A stretch of DNA of 64,000 nt from Candidatus Peribacter sp. (GTDB lineage: Bacteria > Patescibacteriota > Gracilibacteria > Peribacterales > Peribacteraceae). Below the pieces are notes generated by a model. That model saw only the letters and a program-made list of their open reading frames with translations. It was not told the origin of the DNA and did no database searches. A program made the translations under genes and the position numbers. The stretch is taken from NCBI GenBank assembly GCA_030647195.1, contig JAUSKD010000022.1, positions 1 through 64,000 on the forward strand. The letters run 5' to 3'. Shown here one piece after another: positions 8,194 through 46,766 of the stretch. How positions within the stretch are numbered: the stretch's first letter is position 1; the number at the start of each line of letters is the position of its first letter.

Positions 8194-10143
8194 ATGGACG
8201 TTACGGTCCAGACGGGCATGACCAAATCAGTGAAAGGGGTTTCCCTCGTCGCTCTTTCATTTGTTTCTTCTCAGAAGGAACAAGTGTGTCTGCTGCTCGA
8301 GATCGAGGCGGATACCTCTGAGGCGAAGACCACCGAAAAAGAGTGCATTACCATTGTTGAACATGCGTTGCTTGAGACGGACGGAGGCGCCGCGGAGAGG
8401 CTGGATGGTACATTGAAGGAATTGAACGGGCTTCTGAAAGGGCTGATCCTCTCCAAGGCAATCGAAGGGGTTCACGCCATTGTGGCCATTGTGGATCGTG
8501 ATCTGACGCTCCACGTTTCACACGCGGGGAGTGCCGAGGCCTACATCGTGCGTGCCGGAGGGGCGAGCCAGATCACCGAATACACCCGCGGCAAGCCGGT
8601 TCCCGCGTTCGTCCACATCGCCAGTGGCCGCCTGGAGGCGCGCGATACGGTTGTTTTTTCCACGCAGCGGTTGCTCAGGGCTGTCACGCCGGCGCAACTG
8701 GCCCAGCATGCCCAACGGGGTGATCAGCTGCTGGACGAGCTGACGAATACCCTTGAGGCCGAACGGGAGCATGCGGCGCTCGGTGTGCTGCACGCGAGCG
8801 GCGGGCAGATGAAGATCGGCGAAGCGCCCCTGCGCCCTGCAGGGCGGGCTCTGGCGTCGCGTCATGACCGTCGTGGGAGGAATTGGGGAGCCAGCACGAT
8901 CGTCGCCAGGATGGGCGAGCGGGGACGCGCGTTCCTTTCGCTCGGGATATTCCGGCAGATCTGGGAAAAGACGAGCGATTGGGCGGCAACATTCTTTGCG
9001 GATCTCAAAAACCCCAAGCGCAAGCGGCGTGCGCACCTGCTCATCGTGGCGGGGGCTCTCGTCGTCTTCATTCTGCTCTGGGTGATCGTCAACCTCTCCA
9101 CCTCTACGGAGCGCGGCAAGACGAAGGCAGAGCTGACACAGCTCATGGAGCAGATCGATCAGGAGATCCGCACGGCGGAGAATCGCCAGCTGAGCGGAGA
9201 CATCGACGGGGCGAACCTCGTGCTGGATCGCGCACAGGAGGAGGCGCAACAAGTGATGAATAACGAGAGCGGTCTCTACCGTCGGGAATCTCTGGATCTT
9301 CTTGACCGCATCCGCACGAAGAAAGAGGACATCAATCACATCGTCCGTCTCTCGCCGCGTCTCGTGGTGAATGCGTCGGCCAAGAGCGCCGACATCACGC
9401 TCCTTGGCATGGTGGGGCTCGCGGACGGGGAATTCGCTCTGTACGACAAGCAGAACCTCTACCGCGTCCTCCTCAATGCCATTGATGATCCGCAAAAAAT
9501 CACGACGCAGGAAGCCATCGCCGATGCGGCGGGCTTTGCACGCTATCAAACCATTGTCTTCCAGACCGCCACGAACGGCATTATCGAGACGATCGGCGGC
9601 CAGCCCACCACCATGAAGACAGAGGATCCCGCAGGCTGGATCAGCGGAAAGGACGTGAAAACCTACCTTCGTTTCCTCTACATCCTCTCGCCCGAAAACA
9701 ATCAGATCTACAAGTACGAACGGCTCTCGAACCGCTACGGCGCCCCGACGGAGTACAACGTGGATGGGAAGCTCGAGGGGGCGATTGATATGGCGATCGA
9801 TGGACCGATCTTTGTCCTCAAGCGCGGCGGGGAAGTGGTAAAACTCTTCCGCGGAGAGGCGCAGCCCTTCACGATCCGGCATGCGCCGGAGAAGAACATC
9901 CTTGCGACGGCAACCAAGGTGATCAAGGCCGCCGGCAGCAATCTCTACTTCCTCGATCCCACGGGCGCCCGCATCGTGGTGGTGACGGAAGGTGGAGCCA
10001 CCGGAGAATCCTCCTACAAGACGCAGTATGTCTTGGAGGGCGATCAGGTTGGCACGCTGCAGGACTTCTTCGTGGATGCCGACGAGGGGCACCTGTACGT
10101 CATGGATGAAAAGCGGCTGTATGTTGTGGACCTTGTGAAATAG
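8194..10143 (+). CDS. Degenerate PP2C-like domain + TM + putative beta-propeller protein
   Basis: N-terminal VSHAGSAEAYIVRAGG...ITEYTRG...VVFSTQRLL aligns with PP2C signature positions but lacks the catalytic Asp; TM segment LLIVAGALVVFILLWVIV; repeat-like C-terminus. Confidence 0.6.
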   Translation: MDVTVQTGMTKSVKGVSLVALSFVSSQKEQVCLLLEIEADTSEAKTTEKECITIVEHALLETDGGAAERLDGTLKELNGLLKGLILSKAIEGVHAIVAIVDRDLTLHVSHAGSAEAYIVRAGGASQITEYTRGKPVPAFVHIASGRLEARDTVVFSTQRLLRAVTPAQLAQHAQRGDQLLDELTNTLEAEREHAALGVLHASGGQMKIGEAPLRPAGRALASRHDRRGRNWGASTIVARMGERGRAFLSLGIFRQIWEKTSDWAATFFADLKNPKRKRRAHLLIVAGALVVFILLWVIVNLSTSTERGKTKAELTQLMEQIDQEIRTAENRQLSGDIDGANLVLDRAQEEAQQVMNNESGLYRRESLDLLDRIRTKKEDINHIVRLSPRLVVNASAKSADITLLGMVGLADGEFALYDKQNLYRVLLNAIDDPQKITTQEAIADAAGFARYQTIVFQTATNGIIETIGGQPTTMKTEDPAGWISGKDVKTYLRFLYILSPENNQIYKYERLSNRYGAPTEYNVDGKLEGAIDMAIDGPIFVLKRGGEVVKLFRGEAQPFTIRHAPEKNILATATKVIKAAGSNLYFLDPTGARIVVVTEGGATGESSYKTQYVLEGDQVGTLQDFFVDADEGHLYVMDEKRLYVVDLVK

Positions 10144-12092: not shown

Positions 12093-12149
12093 TTGAAGAA
12101 GCACATACAAAACACGAACAGTAAACAAACAGAACAAATGAAATATGCG

Positions 12150-12400
12150 TGCGAACCCCGCACTTTTGCTATGCAAGAGTGCGGGGTGGAGGCACACCAT
12201 TGAAGGGAAAAGAGAGCCCGTGAGAGAAAAACCGTAGGTTTGTCTCTCACGAAGTATTAAAAAGTGGGCTCTCGCCCGACAAGAGTGGGCAAGAGCCCAA
12301 TGGAGTGCCATCGTTTGCACTATTCGGCCCCAAAAGGGGTCCGCCGCCACTCAAGGAAATCCTTAGGTGAGGAGCTTTATGATGGCTGCACTATCGTACA
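12150..12400 (+). ncRNA. Candidate structured RNA/leader upstream of smpB
   Basis: Series of hairpins: CCCCGCACTTTT/AAGAGTGCGGGG (12156-12186); GAGAGCCC-GTGAGAGA...AAACC-GTA-GGTTT...TCTCTCAC...GGGCTCTC (12212-12273); competing GGGCTCTCGCCC/GGGCAAGAGCCC; AGTGC/GCACT; CGGCCCC/GGGGTCCG. Confidence 0.45.
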
Positions 12401-12495
12401 GAAACTCTCTGGAATGTCAAGTTACCGTAACTTCCCTGCTTTGGCCGGGGGAAGCCATTGGCGGCTTTTCTCCCTTTCCCGCATACTTCCCTCCG

Positions 12496-12933
12496 ATGAA
12501 GGTCATAGCCGAAAACCGCCGGGCACGTTTTGATTTCGAAATCCTCGAGACAGTGGAAGCCGGCATCATGCTCACGGGACCCGAAGTGAAATCCTGCAGG
12601 GAAGGCCACGTGAATCTGGCGGGAGCGTATGTCTCGTTTCACAACGGCGAGGCGGTTCTGAAAAATGCTTCCATTTCTCCCTATTCTTTTGCGGCACGCA
12701 TGCCGCACGAGGAACGGCGCGATCGCAAGATGCTTCTGAAGGCGGCGGAGCTCAAAAAACTTACGACTCGGGCGGAAGAAAAAGGATTCACAGTCGTTCC
12801 TCTTTCCTTGCGCGTGGGGAGATTCGTGAAGGTAGAGCTCGGTATCGGGCGCGGTCGCAAGAAGACAGACAAGCGACAGCACATTCGCGAGCGGGAGGTG
12901 GCTCGCAAGCTCAAGCAGACGGGGGATTACTGA
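12496..12933 (+). CDS. smpB: SsrA-binding protein
   Basis: ENRRARFDFEILETVEAGIMLTGPEVKSCREGHVNL...GRGRKKTDKRQ. Confidence 0.95.
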   Translation: MKVIAENRRARFDFEILETVEAGIMLTGPEVKSCREGHVNLAGAYVSFHNGEAVLKNASISPYSFAARMPHEERRDRKMLLKAAELKKLTTRAEEKGFTVVPLSLRVGRFVKVELGIGRGRKKTDKRQHIREREVARKLKQTGDY

Positions 12934-12935
12934 TG
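12906..12935 (+). repeat. 30-bp direct repeat, copy 1 (3' end of smpB)
   Basis: CAAGCTCAAGCAGACGGGGGATTACTGATG, identical to 14765-14794. Confidence 0.95.
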
Positions 12936-12964
12936 ATTTTCCACCGATATACAAAATTATTAAA

Positions 12965-12981
12965 TCATGATATAATCATAG
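12965..12981 (+). promoter_or_regulatory. Putative extended -10 promoter for the membrane gene at 12997
   Basis: TGATATAAT within an AT-rich stretch immediately upstream of the GTG start. Confidence 0.5.
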
Positions 12982-12996
12982 GTAATACCAATAGCT

Positions 12997-14748
12997 GTGC
13001 CTTCCGTCATTCCAACCATTCCTCCCGAGGCGGAATCTGAACAACGGGCTTCCCAGAGCGCGGGATTTTTATGGGCAATCATGCGCGGGATTCCTCACCT
13101 GATTCCTTATCTGGTGATCTCTGTCCTGCTCGTCACGCTCCTATCGCTGATTCTTCCGTTCACCATGGATGAGTTCAGTCAGTTTTCGCCAATCATCTGT
13201 CACTATTATCCGTACAACGCGCTCAATGTTTTTCGTGAAGCATGCGGCCTTTATGATCTGCGGATTCCGCTTCCCGTGTTGAACAACATGCACCTTCCCC
13301 TGCGGGCGTTCTACTACGTCGGCAGTGTGCAGGCATTGATCTATTTCCCTCTTTTCCTTCTCTGGAAGAGCCCGCTGTCTGCACGTCTGCTGGGGATGAT
13401 CTGGCTCATCGCAGAAGCGAGTGTTCTTTCGATACTCTTCCCCGGTATTCGCAGACGCTGGTTTTTCTTCGGGCTCATCGGCTTCTTTTTCTATTTCCTG
13501 ATGCATGTGGTGGACCGCGGGCCAATAGGACCACAATTTTTCTTCGCGTTCCTGAGTTACTGGCTGATATGCCAGTGGATCAACACGCTGCGCCTGCGGT
13601 ATGTGGTCTGGCTGGTCATCATCACTGTCGCGGGTCTCTGGCTCAAGCTCTCTTTCATCTGGATTATGGTCGGTGTTGCAATGGTGAGTACGTCCTATTT
13701 TCTGCAGCGGTGGCGCATGGTATTCGCCACCCCGCAATCGACGCGAAAGTTTCTCTGGCAGGCGGCCGTGGGCCTGCTCGTCCTGGCGCTGCTCTGGTAT
13801 GTAATTTTCTTCGCACAGATGAACGACGGCGTGCGGTACTACAAAATCATGGGGCTCGAGGGGATGTTGTCCTGGAAGGAGCTTCTTCAGGGGGAAGTAT
13901 TCTCCAGCCATTCGTGGGGCATTCTGTGGAATATGTGGCATGCAAATGCGCTGGGGAAATGGGAGCAGATATTGCCGCCAACCGCGCAATCCATTGCCTA
14001 CACGCTCGTTACAATTCTTTCGCTGCCCATCCTCGCGTTGGGGCTGATGGCCACGCGCAGACTGACCATACGACAGATTATCGAACCTGCTGTATTCTAT
14101 GCGGCCTTTCTGGTTGTCCTCAGCTTGATTTTGCTCTCGAAGACCGCGTGGGCCATTCATCACATCATGCTGGCATTCCCGTTCCTGATTCTCAGCTTTG
14201 CCTCCCTGTTTGATGCATGCAGGCATTCGATGCGAAAGATGTGGGCCGGGTGGTACGTCGTCGGATGCATGCTCCTCGCGGTCAACGGTATCGCCTATGC
14301 CACGTACTTCAGGCAGCCGATCCGTGTTGGCGATTCATTTTCGCGCCAAGTGATGCACGAAGTTCTCTACGATCACACCCTCTCGAGCCGGTACATCTAC
14401 GTGATTGTGGATTTTGGCATGTATTTCTACCAGGGCCTATATGGAAACCGCGATCAGTCTGTGCTGTTCATTCTGCCACTCAATAAGGCGGAACAAATTG
14501 CACAATTGAAAGAAATCGCGCTGGCACAGCATCGCAAGTTATTGTTCGTCCATCAAACTGGCTGGTCTGAAACAAACAAGGAATTGATCGCATCATCATT
14601 TGACCTTCAGCGGTGCTCCGCCGTTCCTGCAGATGCCGTCTGGCAGATTCTTCTCGAAAAAGACGGGAGTATCGATTCTCCCTGTCACACCACGCATCCT
14701 GCGGTGCAAGCTCCCGCCGAGCGCTCTCTCTCGACGATTCTCTGGTAG
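12997..14748 (+). CDS. Polytopic membrane protein, PMT/ArnT-type glycosyltransferase-like
   Basis: ~583 aa, >10 hydrophobic segments, DE-containing first loop (FTMDEFSQF); GTG start. Confidence 0.6.
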   Translation: MPSVIPTIPPEAESEQRASQSAGFLWAIMRGIPHLIPYLVISVLLVTLLSLILPFTMDEFSQFSPIICHYYPYNALNVFREACGLYDLRIPLPVLNNMHLPLRAFYYVGSVQALIYFPLFLLWKSPLSARLLGMIWLIAEASVLSILFPGIRRRWFFFGLIGFFFYFLMHVVDRGPIGPQFFFAFLSYWLICQWINTLRLRYVVWLVIITVAGLWLKLSFIWIMVGVAMVSTSYFLQRWRMVFATPQSTRKFLWQAAVGLLVLALLWYVIFFAQMNDGVRYYKIMGLEGMLSWKELLQGEVFSSHSWGILWNMWHANALGKWEQILPPTAQSIAYTLVTILSLPILALGLMATRRLTIRQIIEPAVFYAAFLVVLSLILLSKTAWAIHHIMLAFPFLILSFASLFDACRHSMRKMWAGWYVVGCMLLAVNGIAYATYFRQPIRVGDSFSRQVMHEVLYDHTLSSRYIYVIVDFGMYFYQGLYGNRDQSVLFILPLNKAEQIAQLKEIALAQHRKLLFVHQTGWSETNKELIASSFDLQRCSAVPADAVWQILLEKDGSIDSPCHTTHPAVQAPAERSLSTILW

Positions 14749-14764
14749 CCCGCAGAAACGCAGA

Positions 14765-14794
14765 CAAGCTCAAGCAGACGGGGGATTACTGATG
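14765..14794 (+). repeat. 30-bp direct repeat, copy 2 (upstream of recR)
   Basis: Exact copy of the smpB 3' end (12906-12935). Confidence 0.95.
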
Positions 14795-14845
14795 CTCTGC
14801 GAAATACGTTCCCTTCAATTTCCACATACTGCATACTGCTTCCGC

Positions 14846-15442
14846 ATGTCCCTCCTCCCACCGCAAATCACAAAGGCCATTGAGGAATTCTCTAAGCTCC
14901 CGGGCATCGGGTCCAAGTCCGCCGAACGGCTCACTTTTCACTTACTGAGGAGCTCCAAAGCCTCGCCGGAGACGCTGGGCAAGGCGCTGACGGATCTGAA
15001 AGTTGAGCTCAAGTATTGCAGACACTGCCAGATGGTCACGCTGCAGGACGAGTGTTCGATCTGCGCCGATACCTCCCGCGATCATGCGATGATTCTGATC
15101 GTCGAAAATCCATTGGATGTGATCGCGTTCGAACGTTCCGGATACAAGGGTGTTTATCACGTTCTCCACGGTGTCCTCTCCCCCATCGACGGGATGGGGC
15201 CGGAGCAGCTGAGACTGAAGGAGCTCGTCGACCGCTGTGCGGACGGCAAGGTGGAAGAGGCGATCGTGGCGACCAATCCGGATGTGGAGGGTGAGGCCAC
15301 GGCCAGCTTCATCCGCGAGCGGCTCAAGGATAAGGTTGAGAAAATTACGCGCCTCGCGCACGGGCTCCCGATGGGCGCGGATATCGAATTCGCGGATCAG
15401 GTGACGCTGAAAGAGGCGGTGGATGGAAGGCGGAAACTGTAA
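14846..15442 (+). CDS. recR: Recombination protein RecR
   Basis: LPGIGSKSAERLTFHLL, CRHC...C..C zinc finger, Toprim VATNPDVEGEATA. Confidence 0.95.
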   Translation: MSLLPPQITKAIEEFSKLPGIGSKSAERLTFHLLRSSKASPETLGKALTDLKVELKYCRHCQMVTLQDECSICADTSRDHAMILIVENPLDVIAFERSGYKGVYHVLHGVLSPIDGMGPEQLRLKELVDRCADGKVEEAIVATNPDVEGEATASFIRERLKDKVEKITRLAHGLPMGADIEFADQVTLKEAVDGRRKL

Positions 15443-15515: not shown

Positions 15516-16076
15516 TCAGGACGAGGAGCTGGAAGAACCGGAGCTGACCGAAGACGAGGATGAAGAGCTGGAAGAGGAAGAACTGGAGGAGGTGCTTGAG
15601 CTGGAACCAGAGCCTACTGCGGCGCTGATGGTCGCCGAAATATCGGTGCGGAGCGAAAGGAGCGCGCCATGAATCTTTGCGAGAATATCGACGTAGAGTT
15701 GCGTGCGTGCCTGCGCCGACAGCGCTGCGATGCCCTTGCGCGCATCATGCAGCTGCGCCTTGAACCATGAGCTGAACGTATTCAATTCCATCCGCAGGCC
15801 GCTCATCAGCCTGCCGTTGGAGGCGCGTTCCTCAAGCGAAGATCCGGTTTGGGCCTTTGGCTTTGCTTTCTCATCATCTTCGCTGGCCTTTGCCACATCT
15901 TTTGCGTGCTGTTCTGCGCGACGCAGAATCCGCTCTGTGCGGCCGCCGTGTACATTGGCACGCAGGGACATCTGAGCACCGACGGAACTTTGCGCGGCAA
16001 AGGCGGGAACAGCGGAGCCCACAGTCAGGCCGAAGATGGCGCCGATGATGCCGAGCCTGGAGAGAAAAGAACCCAT
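15516..16076 (-). CDS. Secreted Ser-rich protein
   Basis: Signal peptide MGSFLSRLGIIGAIFGLTVGSAVPAFA; polyserine C-terminus; preceded by ECF-type promoter copy B. Confidence 0.7.
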   Translation of the reverse strand: MGSFLSRLGIIGAIFGLTVGSAVPAFAAQSSVGAQMSLRANVHGGRTERILRRAEQHAKDVAKASEDDEKAKPKAQTGSSLEERASNGRLMSGLRMELNTFSSWFKAQLHDARKGIAALSAQARTQLYVDILAKIHGALLSLRTDISATISAAVGSGSSSSTSSSSSSSSSSSSSSVSSGSSSSSS

Positions 16077-16108
16077 AGAGAAAGGGGGAAAGAAGTACGG
16101 ACACAAGA

Positions 16109-16136
16109 GAAGACGACGCAAGGGGCCGATTCTTAC
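16109..16136 (-). promoter_or_regulatory. Putative ECF promoter, copy B
   Basis: GTAAGAAT-N13-CGTCTTC on the minus strand. Confidence 0.65.
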
Positions 16137-16184
16137 CAGCCGCCCCTCCTTTGCTTTCGCGGGATCTTGATCACTGCTTCTGGC

Positions 16185-16216
16185 AAAAAGGGGCCGCTGG
16201 CAGAGCCAGCAGCCCC
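16185..16216 (-). terminator. Strong intrinsic terminator
   Basis: GGGGCTGCTGGC-TCT-GCCAGCGGCCCC-TTTTT (12-bp stem, one G-U) on minus strand. Confidence 0.85.
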
Positions 16217-16285
16217 CTGGTCATCCCGGTGATGGCAATGGGACAGATAAAAATGTCCATACATGTGGGGAAAGAAATATGGACG
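16185..16285 (-). ncRNA. Candidate ~100-nt small RNA driven by ECF promoter copy C
   Basis: Promoter copy C at 16291-16318; short hairpin GGACA-TTTTTATC-TGTCC; then terminator 16216-16185; no convincing ORF. Confidence 0.5.
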
Positions 16286-16290
16286 CCAGA

Positions 16291-16318
16291 GAAGACGATG
16301 TGCTCCGCCGATTCTTAC
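16291..16318 (-). promoter_or_regulatory. Putative ECF promoter, copy C
   Basis: GTAAGAAT-N13-CGTCTTC, overlapping the stop codon of the anti-sigma-like gene. Confidence 0.6.
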
Positions 16319-17556
16319 CGATGGGTTTCTTCCTCCTCTTCAGATGAGCGTTCTGACGAAGACAGAGAAGAGGATCGAGATTCGGTCTTTTCGGACTCAG
16401 AGCGTGACGATCGGGAAGAGGCCGACGAAGATGAGGATCGCAACAAGGGGGACCATGAGGACGCGAAGGAGCTCGAAGAAGAGCGTTCCTCTCCCTCCCC
16501 CTCTCTTGGCCAGGGGAAGGGTGCCGGAGACGAGAACGGTATGCCAATCGGCAGGATGCCCGCCCCCGGTCCCTCTTCCTGCTCATCGTGGCGTTCCTTT
16601 TTCCCGTTCCCCGATGATGCCGAAGAAGCACTGTGCATGGATGAAGCTGATGAAGAAGCCCTGTCCTCTCCCTCATCGGAATCGCGACCCATGGAGGAAT
16701 CGGATTCTCCATCCCTCAGGTCGGGCAGAGGAGTGATGGCTGGCAGGCGAGCCTTTTCCTCATCCTGCTGTCGGTCGTGATTTTCCTGCGCGCGGCGGGA
16801 AGAAGAGAGAGACGAAGAGTCAGTCCGACGATCGTTCTCGTGCCAGTCTTCGGATTTCTCATCTGCATCATCTACCAGCGCCTTCAATGCGGGCGGCACG
16901 CCCGTGGTGGATTGCATGTGCGCGAGAGAATCCTCGTGCTGATTGAATTCCGTGCGCAGATTCTGCCCCGCTGTCCGTCGTTCGCCGTCGGGCAGATTGC
17001 GCAGACGCTCCTGAAGATGCACAGCATCTTGTTCCATCTGGGAATGGAGAATGGTCTGCCGATTCGCCGGATCTGGCTGGCGGCCCAGGGCATCAGCCTC
17101 TTCGAGCCGCCGCTCGATGGTGCGGATTCCCCACTGTGTACGCCGGGCAGGGGTGAGGGCGAGGCCAGAGATCACCGGTTCCATCACATGCACCTTGATG
17201 GGATAGAGCATGTCGCCCGGCAGCGAGCCCTCGGCGGCATACGCCATGCCCCCTCCGATGAGCAGCAGGGCCATGGCAGAGGAGAGGGCGGCGGTAAAGG
17301 GCCGGAAGAGCATGCGTGCAAGAGAGAACGTCCGTTCCTCGATAGGATTGGCCCGCATGAAACTGAGAAGCCTGGCGCGGCCAATCGCCTTTTCATAATC
17401 GGTCAGCTGAAGAGCAGCCGACGATTCCCGGAGCACGGCCGAAGGTGTCGTCTTCAGCGTATGCGCGGCAAGCGCGGCGCGCGCCTGCGCGTGTTCCACC
17501 GGCGAGAGGGTGCAGGAACGGGCGGCGGCCAAAAATGATGTGATGCGCTTATCCAT
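16315..17556 (-). CDS. DUF5667-like membrane protein, putative anti-sigma factor, Ser-rich C-terminus
   Basis: Overlaps 3' end of the sigma gene; TM AALSSAMALLLIGGGMAYAAEGSLPGDMLYPIKV; long Ser/Glu-rich tail. Confidence 0.65.
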   Translation of the reverse strand: MDKRITSFLAAARSCTLSPVEHAQARAALAAHTLKTTPSAVLRESSAALQLTDYEKAIGRARLLSFMRANPIEERTFSLARMLFRPFTAALSSAMALLLIGGGMAYAAEGSLPGDMLYPIKVHVMEPVISGLALTPARRTQWGIRTIERRLEEADALGRQPDPANRQTILHSQMEQDAVHLQERLRNLPDGERRTAGQNLRTEFNQHEDSLAHMQSTTGVPPALKALVDDADEKSEDWHENDRRTDSSSLSSSRRAQENHDRQQDEEKARLPAITPLPDLRDGESDSSMGRDSDEGEDRASSSASSMHSASSASSGNGKKERHDEQEEGPGAGILPIGIPFSSPAPFPWPREGEGEERSSSSSFASSWSPLLRSSSSSASSRSSRSESEKTESRSSSLSSSERSSEEEEETHR

Positions 17557-18049
17557 GAGGAACCAAGAGGGATTGGAGCTTTTCGATGCCGCGGTTCACG
17601 CGGACGGAAATCACATTGGGGGAAACGTCGAGGAGTTGGGCGATCTCGCGCGGCGGCAGGCCATCGATGAAGCGCAGGATGACGGCTGTCCGGTAGGGTT
17701 CATCGATGTTCTGGAGCGTCTCAAGGACGAAGCTCTCTTCCAATGCCGCAGCGGGTCCCTTTTCGTGGCTGGGAGGATTGAATCCTGCATCCATCATGTC
17801 TTCCAATGAAGAAGTGGGGCGGCGCTTCCTGCGGCGCGCGGTATCGATGATGAGATTATTGGCGATGCGGTAGAGATAGGCACGCATGTTCCGGACAGTC
17901 ATGCCGCCGACGATGGCCTCCCATGCGCGGATGAACGTATCCTGCATAAGATCTTTGCCGTCTTCGCGATCCCCAAGCCGAAGCGCGCAGTGACGGAAAA
18001 TCGCATCCGCGTACAGGTCGTAGGCCTCTAGGAATTCCTGTTGGGTCAT
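17549..18049 (-). CDS. ECF-type RNA polymerase sigma factor
   Basis: DLMQDTFIRAWEAI (sigma2) and LPPREIAQLLDVSPNVISVRVNRGIEKLQ (sigma4). Confidence 0.92.
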   Translation of the reverse strand: MTQQEFLEAYDLYADAIFRHCALRLGDREDGKDLMQDTFIRAWEAIVGGMTVRNMRAYLYRIANNLIIDTARRRKRRPTSSLEDMMDAGFNPPSHEKGPAAALEESFVLETLQNIDEPYRTAVILRFIDGLPPREIAQLLDVSPNVISVRVNRGIEKLQSLLVPHG

Positions 18050-18068
18050 AGAGGGAGGGTGGCGAAAG

Positions 18069-18096
18069 GAAGACGCTCGCGAACGCCTATTCTTAC
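18069..18096 (-). promoter_or_regulatory. Putative autoregulated ECF promoter, copy A
   Basis: GTAAGAAT-N13-CGTCTTC ~20 nt upstream of the sigma ATG. Confidence 0.65.
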
Positions 18097-18119
18097 ACAC
18101 ATTGATCCGGACGTGGCAA

Positions 18120-19726: not shown

Positions 19727-19754
19727 GCAGCCGGGGTTCATGAACCCCGGCTGC
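19727..19754. repeat. 28-bp perfect palindrome (REP-like), copy 1; may act as hppA terminator
   Basis: GCAGCCGGGGTTCATGAACCCCGGCTGC; identical to 46463-46490; minus strand followed by TTTT. Confidence 0.85.
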
Positions 19755-19772
19755 CGGAAAGACAAATAATGC

Positions 19773-46238: not shown

Positions 46239-46766
46239 TTAGTCCAGCCAGACCTCGGTGAGATCAATCAGGTCTGGAAATCGCAGAGAAGACCATAGCC
46301 ATCCTTCCGGATCAGCTGTGAGCCCATGGCGCCAGGCGTTGTATTGGACATAGGTGAGGGCATTGGATCGCTGCACTGCATCGCGGATGCGTTCATCATG
46401 GAATCCGTTTTGCCAGTGAATATCACCGGTTTTGAGTGTGAGAATTGTCTTTGTCTCGTCAGGCAGCCGGGGTTCATGAACCCCGGCTGCCAAAGAGAAA
46501 CATTGCCGTATGTGCCATGAGCTATTCCGTTTGAATGAATGCATAAATGCGCTTAATCCTTGTTTTCCTGGGCTCATGATGATGTGCATATGATCCGGCA
46601 GGATGCAGAATGCATGCACTCGTGCGTTTTGAATATTCCGTGTCATCAAAAGATTATCGATGAGTAGTTCAGGAATCCCTCTCAGTGTGCACCAGGCAAC
46701 TTTTTCTCGAGTATTCGTGGTGATGTGAAACGTGCCATATTGTCTGGAGTGTTGTGGTGGCATCAC
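46239..46766 (-). mobile_element. RAYT-type (REP-associated tyrosine transposase, Y1/HUH) gene
   Basis: HAFCILPDHMHIIMSP (HUH), WQNGFHDERIRD; overlaps comM stop. Confidence 0.85.
46463..46490. repeat. 28-bp perfect palindrome (REP-like), copy 2, inside RAYT CDS
   Basis: GCAGCCGGGGTTCATGAACCCCGGCTGC, read in frame as AAGVHEPRL. Confidence 0.9.

Follow-up and report, generated by a model that had tools for sequence, protein, structure and literature searches.

The described systems that come closest to the locus analyzed here are the genomic islands of tRNA and tmRNA genes (Islander type; PMC4383910), in which direct repeats of the gene 3' end flank the insert and the target stays intact, and the integrase-free joining of DNA through short homology, including homology-facilitated illegitimate recombination (HFIR), for which work in Escherichia coli has shown that integration of a short-homology molecule can duplicate part of the locus (PMC3240628). 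DNA uptake, competence and horizontal gene transfer have been described for Patescibacteria as well (PMC12455944). The locus under study lies in a 64-kb stretch of DNA, all of which we call the window, from a Candidatus Peribacter genome (a 1.35-Mb draft in 57 contigs with 2.2% contamination) whose recR relatives belong to Candidatus Peribacteria / Peribacteraceae. It shares with the islands the gene-end repeats around the insert and the intact target, and differs from them in that the target is the protein-coding gene smpB, that there is a single cargo gene and no integrase, and that the cargo gene also occurs in a relative without att-like repeats. The resemblance to the E. coli events lies in DNA joined without an integrase and in the partial target duplication seen in single-crossover integrants; the E. 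coli duplications, however, span 109-950 bp and involve engineered molecules, whereas the window has a 30-bp repeat and presents the end product only.

A direct repeat of the smpB 3' end around a single gene

The sequence CAAGCTCAAGCAGACGGGGGATTACTGATG is present twice in the window in direct orientation, at 12906-12935 (copy 1) and 14765-14794 (copy 2), with 30 of 30 bases identical, exactly as the earlier note had reported for a perfect repeat of the smpB 3' end. No other exact direct repeat in the window is as long; a 29-bp palindrome comes next and then a repeat of 18 bp. The estimated chance expectation for a 30-bp exact pair in 64 kb of random sequence is about 2e-9 (64000^2/2/4^30). A third copy is absent from the 1.35-Mb assembly even at 3 mismatches, and a search of viral contigs gave no match. 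Elsewhere in the window, at 19727-19755 and 46463-46491, we observed a perfect palindrome of about 28-29 bp, GCAGCCGGGGTTCATGAACCCCGGCTGC, which has 12 copies in the host genome (at most 2 mismatches) and none in four congeners, and which thus appears from its distribution to be a species-specific dispersed palindromic repeat.

Copy 1 (plus strand, as are all features of the locus given below) consists of the last codons of smpB, its stop codon and the dinucleotide TG, and its first 28 nt are identical to the smpB 3' end of two congeners (G004 and G002). The smpB gene (12487-12933; PF01668, E = 1.6e-48; 71-88% amino acid identity in congeners) is complete and open and ends in copy 1; it escaped damage, as what was duplicated is the 3' end of smpB itself. 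Copy 2 is a duplicate of this end, non-coding at its site, and the TG after the stop (TGATG) is common to both copies. It is located 51 nt 5' of recR (14846-15442; Pfam Toprim_4 / RecR_HhH), from which it is separated by a spacer of the empty-allele type (14795-14845) with a -10-like CATACTGC stretch immediately before the recR start. The segment comprising copy 2, the spacer and recR (14765-15441) aligns uninterrupted to the empty site of G004 (86%, 678 columns), and the junction 3' of the insert is therefore an intact one of the empty type. Rfam searches of the locus gave sub-threshold matches only, with none at copy 2, and a tmRNA gene, sought as the true target, was not found within the 64-kb window. 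In the approximately 270 nt 5' of smpB (12100-12370), several inverted repeats can be seen by eye, e.g., GAGAGCCC / GGGCTCTC, for which there is no Rfam match.

The sole gene between the two copies, denoted MP (12997-14748), has a GTG start and 583 codons and encodes a polytopic membrane protein with about 10 hydrophobic segments. It is preceded by a promoter-like site (12948-12976) of the form TATACA-17-TATAAT with TG before the -10 element, so that both the single GTG-start gene and the extended -10 promoter described in the earlier note are indeed there. The same note had called the insert more AT-rich than its surroundings, which is mildly true for overall composition (53% GC in MP and 52% in an orthologue in a relative, L045, vs 58.7% in the window) and does not extend to third codon positions, where the GC content of MP (0.66) is inside the range of the neighboring genes (0.64-0.75). 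Base composition does not mark MP as foreign.

MP itself has no significant match in Pfam, NCBIfam or PDB. Proteins of the same family, approximately 27-33% identical, are found in several Peribacteria, and a second copy is encoded in the host genome. An invariant DE, in an MDE(F) motif that follows the first membrane segment, is conserved in this family, one member of which alone shows a weak match to PMT_2 (E = 0.015). An AlphaFold model of MP built from a two-sequence alignment had a pLDDT of 36 and was unusable. The polytopic architecture and the conserved acidic MDE in the first loop after TM1 are reminiscent of the GT-C superfamily (PMT/ArnT-like), although MP differs in having no significant profile or PDB match of its own; by this resemblance, MP might tentatively be considered a GT-C-type glycosyltransferase.

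The smpB-recR slot in near relatives and across Peribacteria

We compared the locus with those of four congeners, which are about 80% identical at the DNA level, and with a 12.6-kb region around recR of Peribacteraceae STD1_115 (L045). Two of the congeners (G004/L043 and G003/L006) have an empty slot, with a gap of 54-56 nt between smpB and recR, and in the other two (G002 and G001) the gap is about 1.2 kb and contains a minus-strand gene of 376-380 aa the end of which abuts or overlaps the smpB stop. L045 contains an orthologous MP (63% amino acid identity) in the same slot, with a TATAAT-to-GTG distance identical to that in the window, and no repeat. Thus, the repeat is not needed for MP to occupy the slot, and an arrival of MP together with the repeat is not supported. 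Removal of the insert and one repeat unit yields, as anticipated, a plausible smpB-recR junction, which matches the real empty sites of G004 and G003. The search among relatives for empty sites and different cargo proposed in the earlier note found both, and the uniform pattern that it named as contrary evidence, with MP and both repeats diverging vertically in all relatives, is not what is seen, given the empty sites and the filled sites free of repeats. Both parental allele types, empty (G004/L043, G003/L006) and MP-filled (L045), thus exist among the relatives; the sampled genomes are only about 80% identical in nucleotide sequence, and none is close.

Across Peribacteria, 68 loci contain both genes; in 42 of these the slot is empty (15-182 bp) and in 26 it is filled (0.5-2.5 kb). 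The filled slots hold at least 3 gene families along with unclustered ORFs: a minus-strand family at 9 loci, a family with a GDCEDY motif at 3, MP at 2, and a variety of single ORFs, not all of them necessarily genes. The minus-strand family is the commonest occupant and is spread across the whole group, which suggests that it is probably an old occupant of the slot that was lost in many lineages. Its members (L044:4779-5906 and L047:4780-5919, both on the minus strand, and those in L053, L059, L061, L080, L089, L099 and L106) are always convergent with smpB, and most of them end near the smpB stop or overlap it; the two that were scanned have no Pfam match.

No clear repeat was detected in 24 of the 26 filled slots, and no att core recurs across the 26. 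Among the other filled slots, only that of L114 (the same locus as L026) has its own smpB end clearly repeated: an imperfect 25-bp direct repeat that comprises this end and the next bases (L114:4790-5970) surrounds a gene of the GDCEDY-motif family. This repeat, with 21 matches in an ungapped alignment of 25 positions, an exact core of 14 bp and a local score of 31 (p = 0.006 relative to other locus pairs), is unrelated in sequence to the 30-mer of the window, and its second copy borders a hairpin-like sequence and may have another origin. A match in L082 is marginal (p = 0.03 in 26 tests).

The neighboring slot, recR-purH, is occupied at 33 of 49 loci, as compared to 26 of 68 for smpB-recR; being filled at least as often, it indicates that smpB-recR is no exceptional insertion point. 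Together with the lack of a tmRNA gene in the window, this result runs counter to the proposal of an smpB/ssrA integration hotspot. In the window, the recR-purH gap (15516-18100) encodes a Ser-rich protein, a DUF5667-like protein and an ECF sigma factor; these three genes are present in G003, L045, L046 and L049 and were not found in the examined stretches of G004, G002 and G001. At the other end of recR, 50 of 70 loci (vs 15 expected) have a TANNNT motif (14820-14845 in the window) that terminates 5-13 nt ahead of the recR start. By the placement of this motif, recR transcripts are probably leaderless or nearly so, and because recR seems to have its own promoter, the smpB-recR gap would tolerate changing contents.

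Age of the duplication and mixed gene histories

At third codon positions, smpB, recR and purH are only about 50-66% identical to those of the congeners, and for 30 free sites, a complete lack of changes becomes improbable (P < 0.05) once divergence exceeds 0.1 substitutions per site. Given that the two copies are identical in all 30 positions although copy 2 is non-coding, the scar is young, and the duplication is younger than the split from L045, G004 and every sampled relative. The presence of MP in the slot of both the window and L045 is compatible either with descent or with later transfer.

The genes of the locus do not share one history. In the tree of the gene at 8194 (g8194), the window groups with L045, and the grouping of the window with G004 is rejected (p = 3e-9). 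The trees of smpB, recR and purH favor G004/G002, with p values for the window-L045 grouping of 0.047, 0.145 and 0.036, respectively, and with weak support in the case of recR (75/77). This discordance along the locus shows that alleles are mixed in the neighborhood and is what frequent allelic exchange would leave. Mapping of the mosaic by identity and trees indicates that the discordance runs gene by gene, with no breakpoint placed and a switch at MP that is not specific.

Origin of the scar

The reading that we prefer, with a probability of roughly 0.5, is that a single recombination between MP-bearing and empty alleles, with no integrase involved and with one unequal illegitimate junction, left the repeat as its scar. 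An smpB-MP-recR allele (L045-like) and an smpB-recR allele (G004-like) would have been joined at unequal points, just after the MP stop in the former and 28 nt before the smpB end in the latter, which would leave MP with a complete smpB on one side and, on the other, an intact empty-type junction of smpB tail, spacer and recR. The likely route would be uptake of a DNA fragment with homologous recombination at one end and an illegitimate joint at the other, i.e., HFIR; we infer this geometry of the two ends, the involvement of transformation and the direction in which DNA was transferred. For the two junctions that HFIR would leave, one homologous and one at short or no homology, the sequence gives an ambiguous picture: the side of copy 2 and recR is continuous with the empty allele, and the left junction shows microhomology only, CAAGC or CAGACAAGC-type, with smpB. 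The host genome encodes ComEC and DprA, and a search for Ku in it found none. Besides the distance of all sampled genomes, the weak recR tree and the gene-by-gene discordance, two observations go against allelic recombination. The shared TG after the stop demands either TGATG in both parents, which is easy if they were conspecific, or a true 30-bp target duplication, and the 16 nt that lead from the MP stop to copy 2 (14749-14764) match neither candidate parent well. This junction resembles an upstream part of smpB at 10 of 16 positions (shuffle p of about 0.008, post hoc), as would follow if copy 2 had originally been a longer smpB-derived segment that was subsequently shortened by a 36-bp CAAGC-to-CAAGC deletion, a possibility that we considered; the spacer that follows MP in L045, however, fits the 16 nt about equally well.

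The main competitor, which we regard as possible and clearly less probable, is a one-step insertion into an empty site with duplication of the target, through either a Campbell-type single crossover of a circle that bore some 30 bp from the end of smpB or a fragment captured at a staggered break with a 30-bp duplication. Under this scenario, the extension of the repeat 2 nt beyond the stop in both copies (TGATG) is what a true duplication would produce, removal of one unit gives the empty-site structure of G004/G003, and the leaning of smpB, recR and purH alike toward G004/G002 rather than L045 is accommodated; moreover, target-duplicating single-crossover integrants dominated the E. coli test designed for HFIR (PMC3240628). 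What such an insertion explains poorly is the repeat-free MP of L045, which obliges one to assume either that MP inserted twice, independently and at the same point, or that L045 lost the repeat, and 30 bp is long for the target duplication of a transposon. The insert contains no transposase and has no visible terminal inverted repeats, so that it does not qualify as a transposon or IS. A mobile element of another kind, in which the 30-mer is the att core (attL/attR) of a single-gene cassette targeted to the smpB 3' end by a tyrosine recombinase acting in trans, has the geometry of islands that restore the 3' end of their target, and the genome encodes two Xer-like tyrosine recombinases, albeit on other contigs and with scores below the XerC/XerD cut-offs; the imperfect 25-bp repeat around the L114 cargo points in the same direction. 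The identical repeats that restore the smpB end are present, as in integrative islands, but there is no recombinase in or beside the insert and no shared att core, the L114 repeat is unrelated in sequence, clear repeats are missing from 24 of the 26 filled slots, and the 30-mer recurs neither in the genome nor in viral contigs, all of which makes this explanation quite unlikely. We give slightly less credence still to its broader form, namely that recombinase-less single-gene cassettes repeatedly insert at the smpB 3' end of Peribacteria and duplicate the gene end each time, as in the window and more weakly in L114, mobilized either in trans by a Xer-like recombinase resident in the genome or along an uptake and insertion route dedicated to them. 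The integration or recombination scar without an integrase at the locus that the earlier note had proposed is therefore supported, and the reading as a mobile cassette at a hotspot is not.

An assembly artefact, that is, a chimera of MP-bearing and empty strains in the metagenome, is conceivable for a draft of 57 contigs with 2.2% contamination, considering that both allele types occur among the relatives. De Bruijn joins depend on a k-mer common to both sequences at the point of joining, and the final k-mers in usual use are too long to be misled by a 30-bp repeat. The junction between the MP end and copy 2 has no more than a few bases in common with either allele type, and MP, smpB and recR are all intact, so such a chimera is improbable. 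Retention of copy 2 as a regulatory or RNA element of recR would account for its perfect identity and its position just 5' of the gene; nevertheless, no cargo-bearing relative keeps such a copy, except weakly L114, copy 2 has no Rfam match, and the -10-like element of recR is located 3' of it, which leaves this possibility with hardly any weight.

An allelic recombination of the kind that we favor would be an ordinary event in a well-preserved state and reveals no new class of element. The smpB-recR gap, empty in 42 and filled with different genes in 26 of the 68 loci, can be read as a small natural record of gene swaps, and the clean, young scar in the window illustrates how single genes between core genes may be swapped in a patescibacterium with a reduced genome, with no integrase taking part.
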